Of a stretch of DNA of 34,935 nt, positions 2,047 to 9,725 are shown piece after piece. A program made the translations under genes and the position numbers. The stretch's first letter is position 1. Each line of letters begins with the position of its first letter. The stretch is from a virus: positions 1 to 34,935 of IMG/VR virus record IMGVR_UViG_3300044730_000623. One strand, given 5' to 3'. The notes under the pieces were generated by a model, which saw only the letters and a list, made by a program, of their open reading frames with translations, was not told the DNA's origin and did not search any database.

Positions 2047-4246
2047 TTGCCTGCTGAATGACTGACTGATTTGCACCAATGGTGCCAGCAGTCGTTCTGG
2101 CACCAAGCACTCGCGCCAACTCATTGGATGACGAGCGAGCATCTAGCGCAGCCTTCAAGCGCAAAAGCATCTCCTGCGCTTTTTGCCCCTTTGTTTGTGT
2201 GAGGGCATTCGCAATGTCGCTGTACAGCTTATCCTCAAGCGCCAATCGCTCTTCAGGGGTGGCCCGCAACAGAACCTGGAAAATACGCTTTGTTGCCTGA
2301 CCAACGCTGCCTTGCTTCAGCAACTCCAGAACGGAAGAGCCGCCCAAGGCATTGACTTGATTTGTCGTAGCAGTGCGCGCGTATGTCTGAGAACCTTTTG
2401 CCACTGCCTGCTTCATCTGCGCAGCCTTGGCAAAGCGTCCAAGTTGCCCATAAAAGGCTCTAAATTCACGGTCGCCCAACACCAGTTTTAGCTTGTTGCG
2501 CGCATTCCTTGACGAAAGCTCGCGGATTGTTTTGGTCAGCTCCTCCGGCCCAACATCCGCATCGTCCGACAAGGCTTTGACCCGACCGAGCACGTTGTCG
2601 AGATAATCACGAATACCCTTCCTGACCGCCTCTGCTTCAGGCTTGGTTGCGCCCTTTAGTTGCATCACAACATCGTCAACGCTTGTTGCGTCTGACAGTA
2701 CAGTGCGCCCAAATTTTAGCGCCGCGACTTCACGCGCAGGCTCTGCCGCAGTGTCGAGGGCGGCTCGATACGGCTTAACATTGTCCGCAAGGGTATCGCG
2801 CACCAAGTTTGACAATCTCTCCAGCGCCCTTCCCATTTTTGTTTGTCCGCCAAGTTGGCCCATGCCGTCGCCTTGTGCAGCGAGAGCGTCGAGAGCCTCT
2901 TTGACGTAACTCATCTGGCGCATGTCGGGCATGGCCTTGAGCGTAATCGTTCCATCATCTGCAACCTGAAGCAGGCGCTGTAACGATTCGTCTCCGTCCA
3001 CCTTCATTAGTTTGGCCGCATATCCCCAAGCCTCGCCTGGAATGCGTTTAAAAAGGCCCTCTAGTTTTTGGCCCGACGCATTTGCGTAGTTGATTGGTTG
3101 CTTGAATGCGGCTTCATACGCTTCGTTGCGCGCCTCAGCGGTCCCCGACCGGATGGCAGTCATTCGCTGCCCAATGCCGACCGGCTTGCCAAGCGTGTTG
3201 TCTAAAGTCTCGCGCACCATACCGTCAGCACGGGCCAGCCTCTGGGCTATGGCCTCCCGCGCCGCTGTTGCACCCGGCCCGCTGCGCTGCAGGGCCGTGT
3301 CGAGAAGCTGCATAGAGGAATCGCCAGCATCTGCCAGCATGGCGTCTGCCCCACCCCTTGCTATCCTGTCGCGGCCTTTGGTTGTCAGTGTGTCGTCGGC
3401 TGCCAACTGACGCAGCAAGACCTCTGCCGCATCGCGGCTGATGCCGAGCCTTTTTAGCATTGCGTCCGAGGCAATAAAATCTGTTACCTTCTGCGCGCCG
3501 CCCGCAATGGCACCCCCGACGTAAGGTGAGACAAACCCAAGAGGGCCTGCAAGCACCGCACCAAAAGCAGCATTTCCTGCCCGGTTGCCAAAGCCCCCCT
3601 CCCCGCGCGTAAACATATCTGCGGCACCTATGCCCGACGCAATCGCACCTGTCTTTGCTGCCTGCCCAAGCGTTGGCATTACGATGCGGGCTGCTTTCTC
3701 TGTTTGCGTTGCAGTGCCGCCCAAACCCAGCGCACGGGCACCGGCAACCGCCCCCGCAACACCGCCGCCTATCTGCGTTGCCGTGTTTAAAGCGCCAAAC
3801 TGCTTTTCATTGTAGCGGCTTCGGGCGCGCTCATAATCCAGATTCTCTTGGTAGTCTCCGCCGCCGATGGGATTCAACGAATTGAGAAACGCGCTCGTTT
3901 CGTCGATACCGCCAAAAGCCCCGCTAGCAAAATCGCGGACAAAATTGTCGGCTGCGTTGAGCACACCTTGTCCGAAATAATCTTCGCTATTCGACGCACG
4001 CTGCTGCTCCTTGTTCACATAAGCGTCTGCAATGCCCGCCAGTGTCTGCTCATCTGCACCCGCCTTGCGCGCCTCGCGGTACTTCGCCTGAATGTCTGAC
4101 AAACCCATGCCCTTGAAGGGGTCGGCAGGCTTGCTGTTCTGTGACGTAACAAACTGCACCAATTCGTCCTGCGAAGGCTCAACACCGTCAGGCGTCGAAA
4201 CTTCAAATTCCTGCCCGTCAGGTGATGTAATCCGATACTTTGGCAT
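2036..4246 (-). CDS. Large ejection (internal virion) protein, P22 gp16-like position
   Basis: 736 residues, the third of three consecutive putative ejection proteins (7-20-16 order in P22). The N-terminus (MPKYRITSPDGQEFEVSTPD) is a short beta-segment seen at the start of many phage internal proteins. Residues ~155-265 hold several Gly/Ala-rich hydrophobic stretches able to insert in membrane, as expected for a protein that leaves the capsid and helps DNA cross the envelope. The rest is mostly charged alpha-helix. The start overlaps the previous stop (TGATG). The last 11 bases overlap the convergent membrane gene. No lysozyme motif is visible. Role is inferred from order, length and composition. 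Confidence 0.6.
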   Translation of the reverse strand: MPKYRITSPDGQEFEVSTPDGVEPSQDELVQFVTSQNSKPADPFKGMGLSDIQAKYREARKAGADEQTLAGIADAYVNKEQQRASNSEDYFGQGVLNAADNFVRDFASGAFGGIDETSAFLNSLNPIGGGDYQENLDYERARSRYNEKQFGALNTATQIGGGVAGAVAGARALGLGGTATQTEKAARIVMPTLGQAAKTGAIASGIGAADMFTRGEGGFGNRAGNAAFGAVLAGPLGFVSPYVGGAIAGGAQKVTDFIASDAMLKRLGISRDAAEVLLRQLAADDTLTTKGRDRIARGGADAMLADAGDSSMQLLDTALQRSGPGATAAREAIAQRLARADGMVRETLDNTLGKPVGIGQRMTAIRSGTAEARNEAYEAAFKQPINYANASGQKLEGLFKRIPGEAWGYAAKLMKVDGDESLQRLLQVADDGTITLKAMPDMRQMSYVKEALDALAAQGDGMGQLGGQTKMGRALERLSNLVRDTLADNVKPYRAALDTAAEPAREVAALKFGRTVLSDATSVDDVVMQLKGATKPEAEAVRKGIRDYLDNVLGRVKALSDDADVGPEELTKTIRELSSRNARNKLKLVLGDREFRAFYGQLGRFAKAAQMKQAVAKGSQTYARTATTNQVNALGGSSVLELLKQGSVGQATKRIFQVLLRATPEERLALEDKLYSDIANALTQTKGQKAQEMLLRLKAALDARSSSNELARVLGARTTAGTIGANQSVIQQAITE

Positions 4247-5283
4247 CAGTTTCCAACCTTGTTCACAGACCAGCCGCTTGTCTTGCCTGCAACAGCGGGG
4301 TTTGGCTTGCCGGTCGCAGCACCTTGCGCTGGAGGATTTCTGTATGCGTCAACACCAGCTTGCTGAAGCCTGTCATCATTGATGTTGCGCGCTCGATTTA
4401 TAATCGACTGAACAGTCCCAAGCTGCGCGTTCAACCCTTTCGTACCGCGCGCCATCTGCATGACACCCGTAGGGTCTTCGACAATCTTAGTCATCAGCAT
4501 ATAATCTGGACCGTTCAACACACCCAACTCATACAGGTTCTTCATCTGCATCAGCAGGTCGGTGTGCATTGTTTCAACGCTTGAAACTTCCGCGCCTCTT
4601 GTAAGCAGACGCCCGCCACTTGTGGTCTTACCAAGAGCCGTCGTATATGCTTTCAAGCTATTCTCCAGCTCGTCAATCTGTTTGTTGCTATTTCGTATCT
4701 TGCTTAGTTCTCCGGGCTGCAGCCTCGCCGGGTCACCCGGACCGCCAGGGATTGCGACAAGACGAGAGCCATCAGGACTATAATTGTAGCCAGAGGGTGC
4801 ATTTGGCCCGCCACCACCGCGCATGCTTGCCGCCGCCGCCGCGTAAGATTGCGCCGCGTTTGCGTTTGACGCCCTCACTTGGGCGTTGGTCCGTATTTCG
4901 TCCAGCTTGTAGCCGCGCTCTTTCCACTGCTGCTCGAGTTGGTCGCCAATGCTCATGGACTCGCTGATAATGCGGTCGCGCTGGTCAAAGCCGGGAACCT
5001 CGCCGTCCATGCCCAATTCGCGCATAACCTGTGCTGCACCTGCGGCCCACTTCTCAGGGGTATTAAGTGCCATGGCCGCGCGCGCGAGCGTGTCCTTGCG
5101 CCGCATGGCCTCTTGCAGTTGGCGGTCGTCCATTTGCCACTGGAACTGCTGGTCTGAACGCTGGTCCGCACGGTCCTGCCGCATGCGCTGGCGTTCGGCT
5201 TCCTTCTGGGCCTCCTGGCGCTCAAGGCCAGACTGATAGGCATTCAGGAAGTTGCCGACAATGTTGGGCTGCTGAATTTGCAT
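4246..5283 (-). CDS. Ejection protein, P22 gp20-like position
   Basis: 345 residues. The N-terminal third is a highly charged Gln/Arg/Glu helix, probably coiled coil (QEAQKEAERQRMRQDRADQR). An Ala/Gly-rich segment follows at ~140-165, then mixed alpha/beta sequence. No enzyme motif is seen. A strong GGAGG site lies 8 bases before the ATG. It sits between the 233-residue gp7-like gene (3-base gap) and the 736-residue protein (TGATG overlap), matching P22 gp20 between gp7 and gp16. Residue-level similarity to gp20 cannot be judged by eye, so the name describes position, not proven homology. Confidence 0.55.
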   Translation of the reverse strand: MQIQQPNIVGNFLNAYQSGLERQEAQKEAERQRMRQDRADQRSDQQFQWQMDDRQLQEAMRRKDTLARAAMALNTPEKWAAGAAQVMRELGMDGEVPGFDQRDRIISESMSIGDQLEQQWKERGYKLDEIRTNAQVRASNANAAQSYAAAAASMRGGGGPNAPSGYNYSPDGSRLVAIPGGPGDPARLQPGELSKIRNSNKQIDELENSLKAYTTALGKTTSGGRLLTRGAEVSSVETMHTDLLMQMKNLYELGVLNGPDYMLMTKIVEDPTGVMQMARGTKGLNAQLGTVQSIINRARNINDDRLQQAGVDAYRNPPAQGAATGKPNPAVAGKTSGWSVNKVGN

Positions 5284-5286
5284 GTA

Positions 5287-5988
5287 TTAGCCTCCGGGGG
5301 GCTGGCTGAAGTAATTCGACGGATAGCGCATGGTGCTCATGGGCACCTTGGAAACCGTGGGCGCTTGCGGCTTATCAAACCACCCGCCCTGATAAGCCCC
5401 ATACATTTGCGCGCCCTGACTGAGCGCGTTGTTGATACTGTTGCCCATGTTGATATAGCCCTGCGCCCGTGCATTGCCTGCGGCCTGATACGCATTGGCC
5501 TGACCCGACGCGGCGTTCGCACCAAACTGTCCGGTCTGCGTGGCAGCACCCGCACCCGTATCCACCATGCCGCCCAAGCGGCTGAGGTAGTTGTTGAAGT
5601 CGCCGAGATAAAGCTGGCCCGTGCGGTCGCCGATTTCCTGCGCGGTCGCGCCCGAGAACAGGCCCCCGCGTGCGGCGCGCGAAGCGTCTACAGCGCCGAC
5701 CGTGTCCTGCACCATGCGGGCGAGGAACGGGCTTTGCGTGTAGCCCTGAAGAGCAGCCTGATAGGCGTCCGGCCCTCCCATGCCAAGCAAGTCACCATAG
5801 CGGCCCAAGGCGGTAGCACCCGTGTCACGATAGGGTGCAAGGTCGGCGCGTGTCTGTTCGTACTGCTGGCGCTGAATGTCTGCAGACTGCTGTGCGGCTC
5901 TCTTCTGCGCGCTTGCGGCCTTGTTCCCGGCAGCAATACTGGCACCCGCGCCGATTGCGGCGCTTCCGACAATGGCAACTGCGACCAT
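5287..5988 (-). CDS. DNA-transfer / ejection protein, P22 gp7-like
   Basis: 233 residues (P22 gp7 is 229). The N-terminus is a hydrophobic Gly/Ala helix (VAVAIVGSAAIGAGASIAAG), then a Gln/Arg/Ala-rich helix, and a long Ala/Gly/Asn/Gln-rich repetitive region with motifs such as GLFSGATAQEIGDR seen in many podovirus DNA-transfer proteins. I chose the ATG at 5988 because a perfect GGAG site lies 8 bases upstream and it follows the GNAT stop directly; a longer frame opens at 6036 but would sit inside the GNAT gene. Expected to be packaged and released into the host envelope at infection. Confidence 0.65.
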   Translation of the reverse strand: MVAVAIVGSAAIGAGASIAAGNKAASAQKRAAQQSADIQRQQYEQTRADLAPYRDTGATALGRYGDLLGMGGPDAYQAALQGYTQSPFLARMVQDTVGAVDASRAARGGLFSGATAQEIGDRTGQLYLGDFNNYLSRLGGMVDTGAGAATQTGQFGANAASGQANAYQAAGNARAQGYINMGNSINNALSQGAQMYGAYQGGWFDKPQAPTVSKVPMSTMRYPSNYFSQPPGG

Positions 5989-5990
5989 GT

Positions 5991-6449
5991 TTAATCTCCA
6001 ATGTACTTGATAAAAAGCCTTTCGGCCTCGTCCCACCCGCTGCGCTCAAAGAGCCTTGAGGCGTCACGGGACAACTTGGTTCCTGTAAACAGGCGGCGCA
6101 CACCGCGTGCCTTCAGCGCATGTTCGGCACTGGCAAACAAGTTCGCGCCATTCATCCAAAGCCTGTACGAAGGCTTCAGGTAATAAAGGTCGTAAAACGC
6201 GCTGAGACACGACTTGTAGTGCAAGTGCGGCCTGACAATCGCAGTCAGATACCCAACGCAAACGCCACGGTCACGGCCAACCGTCACATGAAGCTGACCC
6301 GTGTCTGCGAGCCTTGCGTATTCGCCGTAATCCGGGTCAAGCGGGACGCAATCCTTGTGCATGCCGACTTCAAGCCAATGGTCTGGCCATAGCTGTTCAA
6401 GTTCGGCAACCACGTCGTGCCAGTTTTCAGTCTGAAACGTCACAGGCAT
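5991..6449 (-). CDS. GNAT-like N-acetyltransferase
   Basis: 152 residues with the GNAT layout: a central beta-strand (VCVGYLTAIVRP), a strand-loop-helix where acetyl-CoA would bind (FYDLYYLKPSYRLWMNGANL, ~85-104), a helix with AEHALKARGVRRL, and a terminal strand after SRLFERSGWDEAE. The pyrophosphate loop is degenerate, without the usual Q/RxxGxG/A, so activity is uncertain. It overlaps the upstream beta-hydroxylase gene by 10 bases and ends two bases before the gp7-like start, so the enzyme is encoded in the tail/ejection operon. The substrate is unknown; a virion protein is one possibility. Confidence 0.65.
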   Translation of the reverse strand: MPVTFQTENWHDVVAELEQLWPDHWLEVGMHKDCVPLDPDYGEYARLADTGQLHVTVGRDRGVCVGYLTAIVRPHLHYKSCLSAFYDLYYLKPSYRLWMNGANLFASAEHALKARGVRRLFTGTKLSRDASRLFERSGWDEAERLFIKYIGD

Positions 6450-6985
6450 GGGCGAATGTCGACGATAAGGGCAAGGCGGTCGTCGGCGCTGTTGTTCAGC
6501 ACTTCATGCTCCTGCGAATTGTCAAACCACCAGATGTCGCCGGTCTTCATGAACACTTGTTCGTCCCCTGCCCGAAACACAACACCAGGCAGGGACTGAA
6601 GTGCAATTTGGTATCGCTTGTAGTACCTTGCGTGCTCTCCGCCGTCGACGTGCGGATGAATGCGCTTTCCCGGTCTCAAGCGCGTGATAAGCACTCGCCC
6701 CAGACGCTCGCCTTCCACTTGCCGCATAAGGCCAAACACAATGCTGCGCACGCCCTGAATCTGGTTCAAGGCCGGATAGTTCTGGCTTTCGTGGGCGTCC
6801 ACAATGTCTTCGGCGCGAAGTGTGTCAGATTGAAACCGCAGCCATATGTCGTCACATTCGGCGTGGGGCGTGCCAGGATATACACGACGAAGGTCGTTGG
6901 TGTTCCAAAGGTCGGGGCGTGTCTGCAAGGCATGCACGATTGCGACCGTGTCAAGACCTTCGCAAAGCCTGTAAAAGTTTTTCAC
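6440..6985 (-). CDS. Aspartyl/asparaginyl beta-hydroxylase-like 2-oxoglutarate/Fe(II) dioxygenase
   Basis: 181 residues. The C-terminal half carries the complete double-stranded beta-helix signature: H112-V-D114 (in RIHPHVDGGEHARYYKRYQI), WWFDNSQEHEVLNN with H160 as third iron ligand, and R170 in DDRLALIVDI for 2-oxoglutarate. This matches the AspH/AspB family (Asp_Arg_Hydrox), which hydroxylates Asp/Asn side chains; phage members also act on other substrates. Start is GTG at 6985, overlapping the upstream stop as GTGA, so it is coupled to the collar-like gene. All expected catalytic residues are present, so I expect an active enzyme. Its substrate cannot be read from the sequence. Confidence 0.85.
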   Translation of the reverse strand: MKNFYRLCEGLDTVAIVHALQTRPDLWNTNDLRRVYPGTPHAECDDIWLRFQSDTLRAEDIVDAHESQNYPALNQIQGVRSIVFGLMRQVEGERLGRVLITRLRPGKRIHPHVDGGEHARYYKRYQIALQSLPGVVFRAGDEQVFMKTGDIWWFDNSQEHEVLNNSADDRLALIVDIRPCL

Positions 6986-7275
6986 CGCACCCTCACGATA
7001 AAGCCAACGTCATTGGGAATAGTAACGGTCGTGGCCGTGGTGACATAGGCAGCGTCGGTCTGGGCGTAGTCCCAGAGGTCGGGATAATCCGCCTTCGACA
7101 CAACCTGTCCGGTCTTGGCCAGAAAGCGCGCGTTGGGCGTGCCTGCGTATTTGATAGACCCACCCACCGGAATAAGGCTTTCCTCATGGTCGAGAATGGC
7201 CTGAAGAAAGCCCAAGACTTCCCGGTTGTCCCCATGCAGCTTTGCCGGCACGTTGGGCCTGACGCGGCGCACCAT
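6982..7275 (-). CDS. Small tail-collar-like protein
   Basis: 97 residues. The N-terminal ~35 residues form a charged helix (NREVLGFLQAILDHEESLIP), followed by GGSIKYAGTPNARFLAKTGQ, SKADYPDLWDYA and VTIPNDVGFIVRV. The order 'G-x-I-xYAG ... SKADYPDLW ... IPN' is that of phage tail-collar domains at fibre tips. It is short, so it may be a fibre-tip or baseplate piece. Its stop overlaps the GTG of the beta-hydroxylase. In P22, genes 26 and 14 occupy this interval between gp10 and gp7. Confidence 0.5.
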   Translation of the reverse strand: MVRRVRPNVPAKLHGDNREVLGFLQAILDHEESLIPVGGSIKYAGTPNARFLAKTGQVVSKADYPDLWDYAQTDAAYVTTATTVTIPNDVGFIVRVR

Positions 7276-7279
7276 GGGT

Positions 7280-7705
7280 TCAGTACCCGTCCAGCATGCG
7301 TTGACGGGCCTGCATGCGCGCGGCGTCGTCCATGCGCTGCATGATACGCTGGTTATTCATTGCCATGTTGCCCGCCCCCCCGGCCATGGCCGCGCGGGGG
7401 TCCTGCCCGCGCTCCCGCCCAAACAATGCAAGGAAATTCTGGAAGGGTGACGATTGCGGGCGCGGCATGGGTTGCGTGTTCGGCATGACACCCCGCGCGC
7501 GCGCAATGTAATCACGAATGCTTTCGGGCTGGGGCTGGGGCGCGCCTTGCGGAAGCGACCCCATAAGCGCCTGGCGTTCGGCTTCCCGCTGCTGCTGGTA
7601 ATACGCTTCCAGTTCCGCTTCCTTCTGCATGGCCTGAAGCCTTTGCATGTCATTGGCGTTGATACCGCCCTGACCGTTGCCCAGTTTTGAAAGCATGTTC
7701 GGCAT
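7280..7705 (-). CDS. Unknown Gln/Met/Pro-rich virion protein
   Basis: 141 residues, start chosen at 7705 because ATG overlaps the gp10-like stop as TAATG. The upstream open frame lies inside that gene. Low complexity: Gln/Glu/Ala helix (QRLQAMQKEAELEAYYQQQ), a Pro/Gln-rich linker (QGAPQPQPES), then a Met/Arg/Gln-rich C-terminus (NQRIMQRMDDAARMQARQRM). No domain recognised. It sits where P22 carries the tail-needle gene 26, but there is no visible needle-like heptad pattern across its length, so I do not assign that function. Confidence 0.55.
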   Translation of the reverse strand: MPNMLSKLGNGQGGINANDMQRLQAMQKEAELEAYYQQQREAERQALMGSLPQGAPQPQPESIRDYIARARGVMPNTQPMPRPQSSPFQNFLALFGRERGQDPRAAMAGGAGNMAMNNQRIMQRMDDAARMQARQRMLDGY

Positions 7706-9135
7706 TAGTTGGTTCCCACCTGAATATCTGCCCACGCGCCGAGAAACACGGCCTTCACCGGGTCGGACACGCGAAAGCGAATAATGCGTTGACGATAGCT
7801 GCCGCAGGCAAACCACACCGCGCGCCATTTGTTTTGCCCCACTGGCCCCATGGCCGCAGGGCGCGGGTCAGACCACGTTCGCCCGCCGTCGTCGGAATAG
7901 CACATGAGCACCTGAGGGTTAGACCCCTGCCCCGTCACCAACCCCACCCCGGCTTCGATATCCAGTTCCAGACGCGGCATGAAGGCCCTGCGCCCGTCAT
8001 GGTGCAGTTGCAGGCTGGTGGCTTCTCGGACGAGGCCCATGCCCCCTTCGGCATAGCTGTCGGCCAAGAGTTCGTAGAGGTTCCCGTCGCTGGAGCCGAC
8101 CACCTGGCGCTGGCCGTTCAAGGTCAGGTTGCGCGCGTCCCAGCCCCCCGTCGCGTCCGACCCCATGGGCCAGGTGCCTGACTTCCGGTAGGACCAGAGG
8201 TTGGTCGATATGTCCCACGCAAAGGACCATTCGTTGGGCAACGTCAGCACATAAAACAAGTGCCCGCGCTGCTGGTAGGTGAAGGCACTGAGCGCCGAGA
8301 GGTCGGACACCTGTTCCAGATAGTTGTCCACTTCCGGCGGGCTAATCTTGCGCGGCGCGTAGCCTTCGGCGCGATAGACGCTGACCCCGCCCGCCCGTCC
8401 GTCACGCCCCACCCATGTCAGGCCACTATCAACGACCACAGCCGTGTCACGGGCAACGCAGCCGATATTGGCCGCAGCCGTTGCGGTCTTGGCGAAGGCA
8501 TTCGCCCCGCTGTCGCCGGTCGGGCCCCACCATTCAACGGAACGTGAGCCCAGCAATGCCACGTCATTGGCAACCGCACGAATGGCGACCAGATTGTCGC
8601 TTTCCGCTTCGCCGGTAGCGAAGTTGTTGGCCGGGAACGTCGTGTCGTTGATTAGCTTCCAGCGAAAGCGCCCTGAGTTCGCGACCGATATCAGCGAATA
8701 GCTGGCAATCGACGTGCAGCTTGACGCCTGTTCGAACCCACCCCCCGAATGTTCACTCAAGGCCAAGGTCGGCACGTCAAACTGGTAGGATTTGATTTCG
8801 CCGACGATATCAATCTGCGCGCCGTTGTAGGCCATATCGACCGGCAGACTGCCTTCAATGGTGCCGAGCGCCGTGGTCGAGCCACCGCCCGTCACTGCAT
8901 GAAGTGTAGTGCCGACCACCACATAATGCTGGTCGCCCGCCGTGATTTGCCCCCGCACTTGCCCCCCGCCAATCGTGGAGAAAAGATTGCGTGTCGGCGT
9001 GCCATAGCAGACAAAGTCCGTGCGCCCTTCGCCTTCGACCGGCTCGCCATACATGTTGACGAGCGAGGTCATGCCCGCCGATTTCGACCGACCGACATTG
9101 AAGGCTCGCCCGAAGGGCACGCGGATACGGGGCAT
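7705..9135 (-). CDS. P22 gp10-like tail accessory / packaged-DNA stabilisation protein
   Basis: 476 residues (P22 gp10 is 472). The N-terminus (RIRVPFGRAFNVGRSKSAGM, then LVNMYGEPV and YGTPTRNLF) has the layout of the phage_stabilise family: a short lead, an N-x-Y motif and a 'GTPG' type turn before beta-propeller-like repeats. The rest is beta-rich. Start at 9135 gives a TAATG overlap with the previous stop; a TTG nine bases earlier is less likely. It plugs the portal-connector channel after DNA filling in P22. Located downstream of the gp4-like connector, as in P22. Confidence 0.65.
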   Translation of the reverse strand: MPRIRVPFGRAFNVGRSKSAGMTSLVNMYGEPVEGEGRTDFVCYGTPTRNLFSTIGGGQVRGQITAGDQHYVVVGTTLHAVTGGGSTTALGTIEGSLPVDMAYNGAQIDIVGEIKSYQFDVPTLALSEHSGGGFEQASSCTSIASYSLISVANSGRFRWKLINDTTFPANNFATGEAESDNLVAIRAVANDVALLGSRSVEWWGPTGDSGANAFAKTATAAANIGCVARDTAVVVDSGLTWVGRDGRAGGVSVYRAEGYAPRKISPPEVDNYLEQVSDLSALSAFTYQQRGHLFYVLTLPNEWSFAWDISTNLWSYRKSGTWPMGSDATGGWDARNLTLNGQRQVVGSSDGNLYELLADSYAEGGMGLVREATSLQLHHDGRRAFMPRLELDIEAGVGLVTGQGSNPQVLMCYSDDGGRTWSDPRPAAMGPVGQNKWRAVWFACGSYRQRIIRFRVSDPVKAVFLGAWADIQVGTN

Positions 9136-9725
9136 TAGGACCAAATCACCTGAATGTAGCCATTGAACCCGGCGTCATTGGCGGTCGAAGCAAAAGCCCC
9201 GTCGCCCGGACTGCCACCCGTCGTCCCGGCCAAGGCCCCGGAGAATGTCGCCCCGCCCGCCCTTCCCGGCGTGCCCGCTGCTTCTTCACCGGGCGGCGTG
9301 GCCACATAGCCCGAACCGCTTTGGCCCGTGATATTGGTGTCCCCGCCTGAGGCCGTTCCGCCAGTTCCGTCCGCAAGGTTGGTGCCTTTGTTCCCACCAT
9401 TGCACGTCACCGACACGGCAGAACCGTTCAGGGTTCCGGATACCGTCGTATTGCCACCATTGTTGCTGGCCGACCCTGACCCAATCGCGACAGTGAGCGT
9501 GGTTCCCCATTCACCAGCCAGAACCGCGCGCGTGAGGTAGGCAAAGCCGCCCCCGCCCCCTGCCGACCCGTCAACAGGGGACACGCGCCCAAAAGCGGCC
9601 CCACCCGCCGCCTGCGCCCATATCTGCACCGTCGTTGCACCATTGGGAATGGTAATCGACGTGGTGCCGGGGAAGTAAAGTTCGCCCATGTTGAAAGGCT
9701 GTCCGGTAATGACGACGCCCGTCAT
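9135..9725 (-). CDS. Gly/Thr-rich virion protein, probably fibre or tail-associated
   Basis: 196 residues, strongly Gly, Ala, Thr, Ser and Asn rich, with beta-strand/turn repetition (NNGGNTTVSGTLNGSAVSV). The N-terminal motif SITIPNGATTVQIWAQAAGG resembles the glycine-rich adhesin domain (GAATTVT-type) found at tips of tail fibres. No catalytic motif. Starts in an ATGA overlap with the 147-residue gene and ends in a TAATG overlap with the gp10-like gene. Confidence 0.55.
   Translation of the reverse strand: MTGVVITGQPFNMGELYFPGTTSITIPNGATTVQIWAQAAGGAAFGRVSPVDGSAGGGGGFAYLTRAVLAGEWGTTLTVAIGSGSASNNGGNTTVSGTLNGSAVSVTCNGGNKGTNLADGTGGTASGGDTNITGQSGSGYVATPPGEEAAGTPGRAGGATFSGALAGTTGGSPGDGAFASTANDAGFNGYIQVIWS

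Follow-up and report, generated by a model that had tools for sequence, protein, structure and literature searches.

The genes described here lie within a window of 34,935 nucleotides, which is the whole stretch of viral DNA that was analyzed. They are all encoded on the minus strand and are transcribed in the order gp10-like gene, 141-aa ORF, collar-like gene, hydroxylase, GNAT, gp7-like gene and the gene of a 345-aa protein (Table 1). The gene calls reproduced the coordinates and the order which had originally been predicted for the three genes between the flanks. Both flanking assignments, gp10-like and gp7-like, were likewise confirmed by PHROG profiles.

Table 1. Genes around the hydroxylase and GNAT genes in the window
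Gene product	Position	Strand	Evidence or remark
Head closure Hc3, gp10-like flanking gene	7705-9144	-	phrog_578, E 1e-86
141-aa protein, no family	7280-7705	-	between gp10-like and collar-like genes
Small collar-like protein, 97 aa	6982-7275	-	weak tail-fibre PHROGs; relative in L188 is Pfam Collar
Fe(II)/2-oxoglutarate hydroxylase, PF05118 (Asp/Asn beta-hydroxylase) family, 181 aa, GTG start	6440-6985	-	PF05118, E 1.8e-15; model; invariant active site
GNAT (acetyltransferase-like), 152 aa	5991-6449	-	PF00583, 20.9 bits; phrog_1249; model
P22 gp7-like DNA ejection protein, 233 aa	5287-5988	-	phrog_598, E 4e-30
345-aa protein, gp20 position downstream of gp7	4246-5283	-	position alone; no family match

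The collar-like stop and the GTG start of the hydroxylase overlap by 4 nt. Hydroxylase and GNAT overlap by 10 nt, the GNAT ATG being located within the 3' end of the hydroxylase gene, and a gap of only 2 nt separates the GNAT stop from the ATG of gp7 (position 5988), with a GGAG inside the GNAT end. These tight junctions are signs of translational coupling across the collar-like, hydroxylase, GNAT and gp7 genes and are consistent with the coupling claimed in the original prediction. The 141-aa protein, which occupies the tail-needle (gp26) interval, has a charged, probably helical N-terminal half.

A complete Asp/Asn beta-hydroxylase with the residues H112, D114, H160 and R170 had been proposed, and these residues are present as described. 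The protein scored 57.6 bits against PF05118 (curated cut-off 22.6). An AlphaFold2 model, built from an alignment of 55 sequences, showed the complete fold with a mean pLDDT of 95. It matched proline-3-hydroxylase with Z 15.5 (rmsd 2.5, 148 residues aligned) and human AspH with Z 14.1 (rmsd 2.9, 155 aligned); with Z values of 14-16 for proline hydroxylases and human AspH the model belongs to the 2-oxoglutarate oxygenase fold. The nearest solved structures include free-amino-acid hydroxylases, namely proline hydroxylases and a nucleoside-antibiotic beta-hydroxylase, but the protein hydroxylases human AspH and PHD2 reached fold scores nearly as high. In a set of 112 phage relatives made non-redundant at 90% identity (contig L002/L031 left out), the iron ligands H112, D114 and H160 as well as N164 were invariant in 112/112, and R170, the 2-oxoglutarate arginine, was kept in 111/112. 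In contig L002/L031 several genes, including gp10 and GNAT, are split over several frames, probably by sequencing errors.

The phage protein thus shares with human AspH and the PF05118 family an above-cut-off profile match, the double-stranded beta-helix fold and the conserved metal and 2-oxoglutarate ligands. It differs in its length of 181 aa, in the location of its gene next to ejection genes and in the retained HxD aspartate. Cellular relatives of the hydroxylase in Roseobacter genomes (L129, L146) have an ABC transporter gene in their neighbourhood, in which no phage genes were detected. A hydroxylase of the same family also follows a different major capsid type (Phage_capsid_4) in L064 (7001-7564) and L065, where neither GNAT nor gp7 was detected.

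The gene called GNAT-like in the original prediction passed the Pfam cut-off for Acetyltransf_1 (PF00583) only marginally (20.9 versus 20.7 bits), yet it matched the acetyltransferase family phrog_1249, and its model showed the full GNAT fold (mean pLDDT 95). Compared with solved GNATs the model reached Z 16 over 142 residues, and the matched folds include active acetyltransferases. In 105 relatives H24, Y44, Y67, H77 and D87 were invariant, and K125 was kept in every relative that has a residue at this position. Within the acetyl-CoA loop (R/Q-x-x-G-x-G/A) R96 and G101 are conserved but the first glycine is not (M99 in the window), and acetyltransferase activity is therefore likely rather than certain. 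In summary, the phage protein resembles the PF00583/phrog_1249 GNATs in fold and family matches but departs from them in its marginal Pfam score and in this glycine. The best match of the GNAT profile among solved structures was the N-terminal acetyltransferase NAA30 (E 4.6e-5).

To determine the distribution of this arrangement, viral contigs were scanned with a hydroxylase profile, which gave 428 relatives, and with a narrow GNAT alignment in the reverse direction, which gave 297. The best 80 of each scan were kept; both samples consist of the closest matches, near-duplicates included, and describe this subfamily rather than all phage GNATs. In the hydroxylase-centred set a GNAT occupied the next slot in 76/80 contigs, including six divergent GNATs, and a gp7 profile derived from the first loci detected gp7 in 69/80; three of the remaining contigs end inside or at the cassette. 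In the GNAT-centred set the hydroxylase was directly upstream in 80/80 and gp7 was present in 76/80. The recurrence is far beyond chance, and the same gene pair near gp7 homologues in other phages, for which a search had been suggested initially, was thereby found. The same order was present in the isolate Pseudomonas phage PfAn1. It also occurred in contigs of bacterial genomes which are probably prophages and whose titles name Paraburkholderia, Janthinobacterium, Massilia and others.

The composition upstream of the hydroxylase was less constant. The 97-aa collar-like protein of the window has only weak tail-fibre PHROG matches, and a relative in the same slot of L188 clearly matches the Pfam Collar domain (E 2.4e-18). 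However, the collar-like gene is found upstream in this clade only, and in most loci the position is taken by unrelated small proteins, which rules out the collar protein as a constant substrate. A family of ~112 aa (phrog_20100, unknown function) recurs in the collar slot of many loci, e.g. L062:6675-6997.

The cassette has also been rearranged. Several contigs have cassette and gp7 on the upstream side of gp10, kilobases away, rather than on the downstream side, with the internal order kept. Of the 26 viral contigs related to Limnohabitans phage DC33, 25 share with it the gene order terL, hydroxylase, GNAT, small protein and head-tail connector (terL/portal layout), and the last one breaks off within the hydroxylase gene. 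The small protein has a hydrophobic, Ala/Gly-rich N-terminus and weak PHROG matches, and may be regarded as ejection-like by its N-terminus only. The taxonomy line of DC33 (PQ492659.1, here L021) reads Inoviridae; this label looks wrong, since genes for a large terminase and a head-tail connector are present in its 39-kb genome.

Replacement and loss of single genes were observed as well. A divergent GNAT occupies the usual GNAT slot in L035-L040 and relatives. L039 (7530-7985) and L040, which has the same layout, carry an extra ORF between hydroxylase and divergent GNAT that resembles HNH-type homing endonucleases by sequence. MW202665 and L279 lack the intervening GNAT: here the next gene after the hydroxylase encodes a DNA-ejection protein, assigned to phrog_21132 by a test of the MW202665 copy. 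Conversely, the hydroxylase is missing between collar, divergent GNAT and gp7 of L188-L190 and L192; no copy of it was found elsewhere in these records, which may be fragments. The near-isogenic loci L189 and L185 (gp10 96%, GNAT 90%, gp7 89% and collar 88% identical) differ by the whole hydroxylase gene. From the hydroxylase-free and GNAT-free loci it follows that the small ejection protein, and not the collar, is the neighbour that stays constant, and that either enzyme can occur without the other.

For the 87 loci with hydroxylase, GNAT, gp7 and gp10, distance correlations, calculated from simple alignments and not from trees, were r 0.535 for hydroxylase and GNAT, 0.33 for hydroxylase and gp7 or gp10, and 0.79 for gp7 and gp10. 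Hydroxylase and GNAT distances thus agreed better with each other than either did with gp7 or gp10, and the two enzymes travel together in partial independence from the structural genes.

The gp7-like protein itself scored 19.5 bits against Pfam P22_gp7, below the cut-off of 28, but matched the PHROG ejection profile phrog_598, through which it is homologous to P22 gp7. Unlike P22 gp7, its relatives start with a hydrophobic MVAAA-type or an MP(V/I)GT-type N-terminus, and the type covaries with the GNAT: most main GNATs are accompanied by the MVAAA-like type and the divergent GNAT by the MP(V/I)GT-like type. Together with the NAA30 match this may be a lead towards N-terminal acetylation of gp7; however, as the genes are adjacent, recombination explains the covariation equally well. 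The alignment of gp7 relatives contained no invariant Asp or Asn, and none of the residues of collar, gp7 and gp10 tracked the presence of the hydroxylase in close relatives (three hydroxylase-free loci compared).

Based on gene content, the intact folds, the conserved hydroxylase active site and the conserved order, we propose that hydroxylase and GNAT together make up a conserved enzyme cassette which is linked to the gp7 gene of short-tailed phages and modifies gp7 or an ejection partner. We assign this reading a probability of roughly 0.45. Both enzymes would act in the host cytoplasm during infection, prior to packaging: the Fe(II)/2-oxoglutarate hydroxylase would hydroxylate a putative target residue of gp7 or of an ejection-complex partner, and the GNAT would acetylate gp7 or such a partner. 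The modification would tune solubility, assembly or membrane insertion of the protein. The intact genes, the invariant active site and the adjacency to gp7 across different layouts fit an action on a virion or ejection protein, and to this extent the modification of virion proteins suggested by the original prediction holds as a plausible reading. Its extension to tail proteins fared less well: as the collar is not a constant member of the cassette, these are weaker candidate substrates, and gp7 would be the leading one. Several findings count against the proposal, namely the missing invariant Asp/Asn and hydroxylase-tracking residue, the dispensable hydroxylase, the unusual GNAT loop and the free-amino-acid hydroxylases among the nearest folds.

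The GNAT shares its slot ahead of the small ejection protein with P22 gene 14 and T7 gene 13 according to the P22 and T7 gene tables, and the GNAT of phage SIO1 has been equated with T7 gp13 in print (PMC6775973). Combined with the marginal Pfam score and the non-conserved first loop glycine, this would fit a GNAT-fold protein acting mainly as a non-catalytic assembly factor of ejection proteins, with the hydroxylase as an accessory that modifies it or gp7. We consider this unlikely. Sequence profile comparisons based on small template alignments gave no match of the GNAT to T7 gp13 or P22 gp14 (PF11090, PF11039), and R96, G101 and several polar residues are strongly conserved in a fold that matches active acetyltransferases.

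A similarly low likelihood applies to enzymes that modify a host protein or counter host defence and are held beside gp7 by late expression and inherited gene order. The absence of the hydroxylase from some close relatives and the partly independent transmission of both enzymes would agree with such a role, but the adjacency to the ejection gene has survived rearrangement as well as replacement and loss of the GNAT. Successive action of hydroxylase and GNAT on a small molecule such as a free amino acid, to which the nearest folds and weak NCBIfam matches (nonproteinogenic amino acid hydroxylase, aminoglycoside acetyltransferases; all far below cut-off) could point, is improbable given the virion gene as constant partner, the nearly equal scores of protein hydroxylases and the N-terminal acetyltransferase as best solved match of the GNAT profile.

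The original prediction had also stated that enzymes are rarely placed in this interval. For GNATs this is incorrect: GNAT genes adjoining ejection genes recur in Zobellviridae, and SIO1-like phages carry a GNAT beside internal virion genes, with SIO1 pc40 suggested to correspond to T7 gp13 (PMC6775973). These phages share the neighbourhood of GNAT and internal virion or ejection genes with our loci but no hydroxylase partner was reported there. The GNAT of roseophages CRP-4 and CRP-5 was interpreted as part of host metabolism (PMC6918029), and PMC12195039 counted the DC33 hydroxylase among metabolic genes, giving no genomic context for it. The open-access literature searched, outside of which lie most subscription papers and bioRxiv preprints, contained no published hydroxylase-GNAT-ejection arrangement and nothing relevant on hydroxylated virion proteins or the enzyme pair, in agreement with the initial statement that no such described system was known. 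The gene association is real, widespread and, as far as searched, undescribed, and a putative role in modifying the ejection machinery is plausible.

After synthesis in the cell, ejection proteins are packed into the head, pushed out through the narrow tail and refolded into a channel. We regard it as possible, although more tentatively than the cassette reading itself, that an oxygen-dependent hydroxylase and an acetyltransferase form a widespread system which modifies an ejection protein ahead of packaging, and that this step is either essential for genome delivery or fine-tunes it. Should ejection proteins indeed be hydroxylated and acetylated by phage enzymes, genome delivery would include an extra chemical step and virion maturation would be oxygen-dependent. 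Since PfAn1, which carries the cassette, is a cultured phage, and named bacteria have it in their genomes, the question of modification is directly testable.
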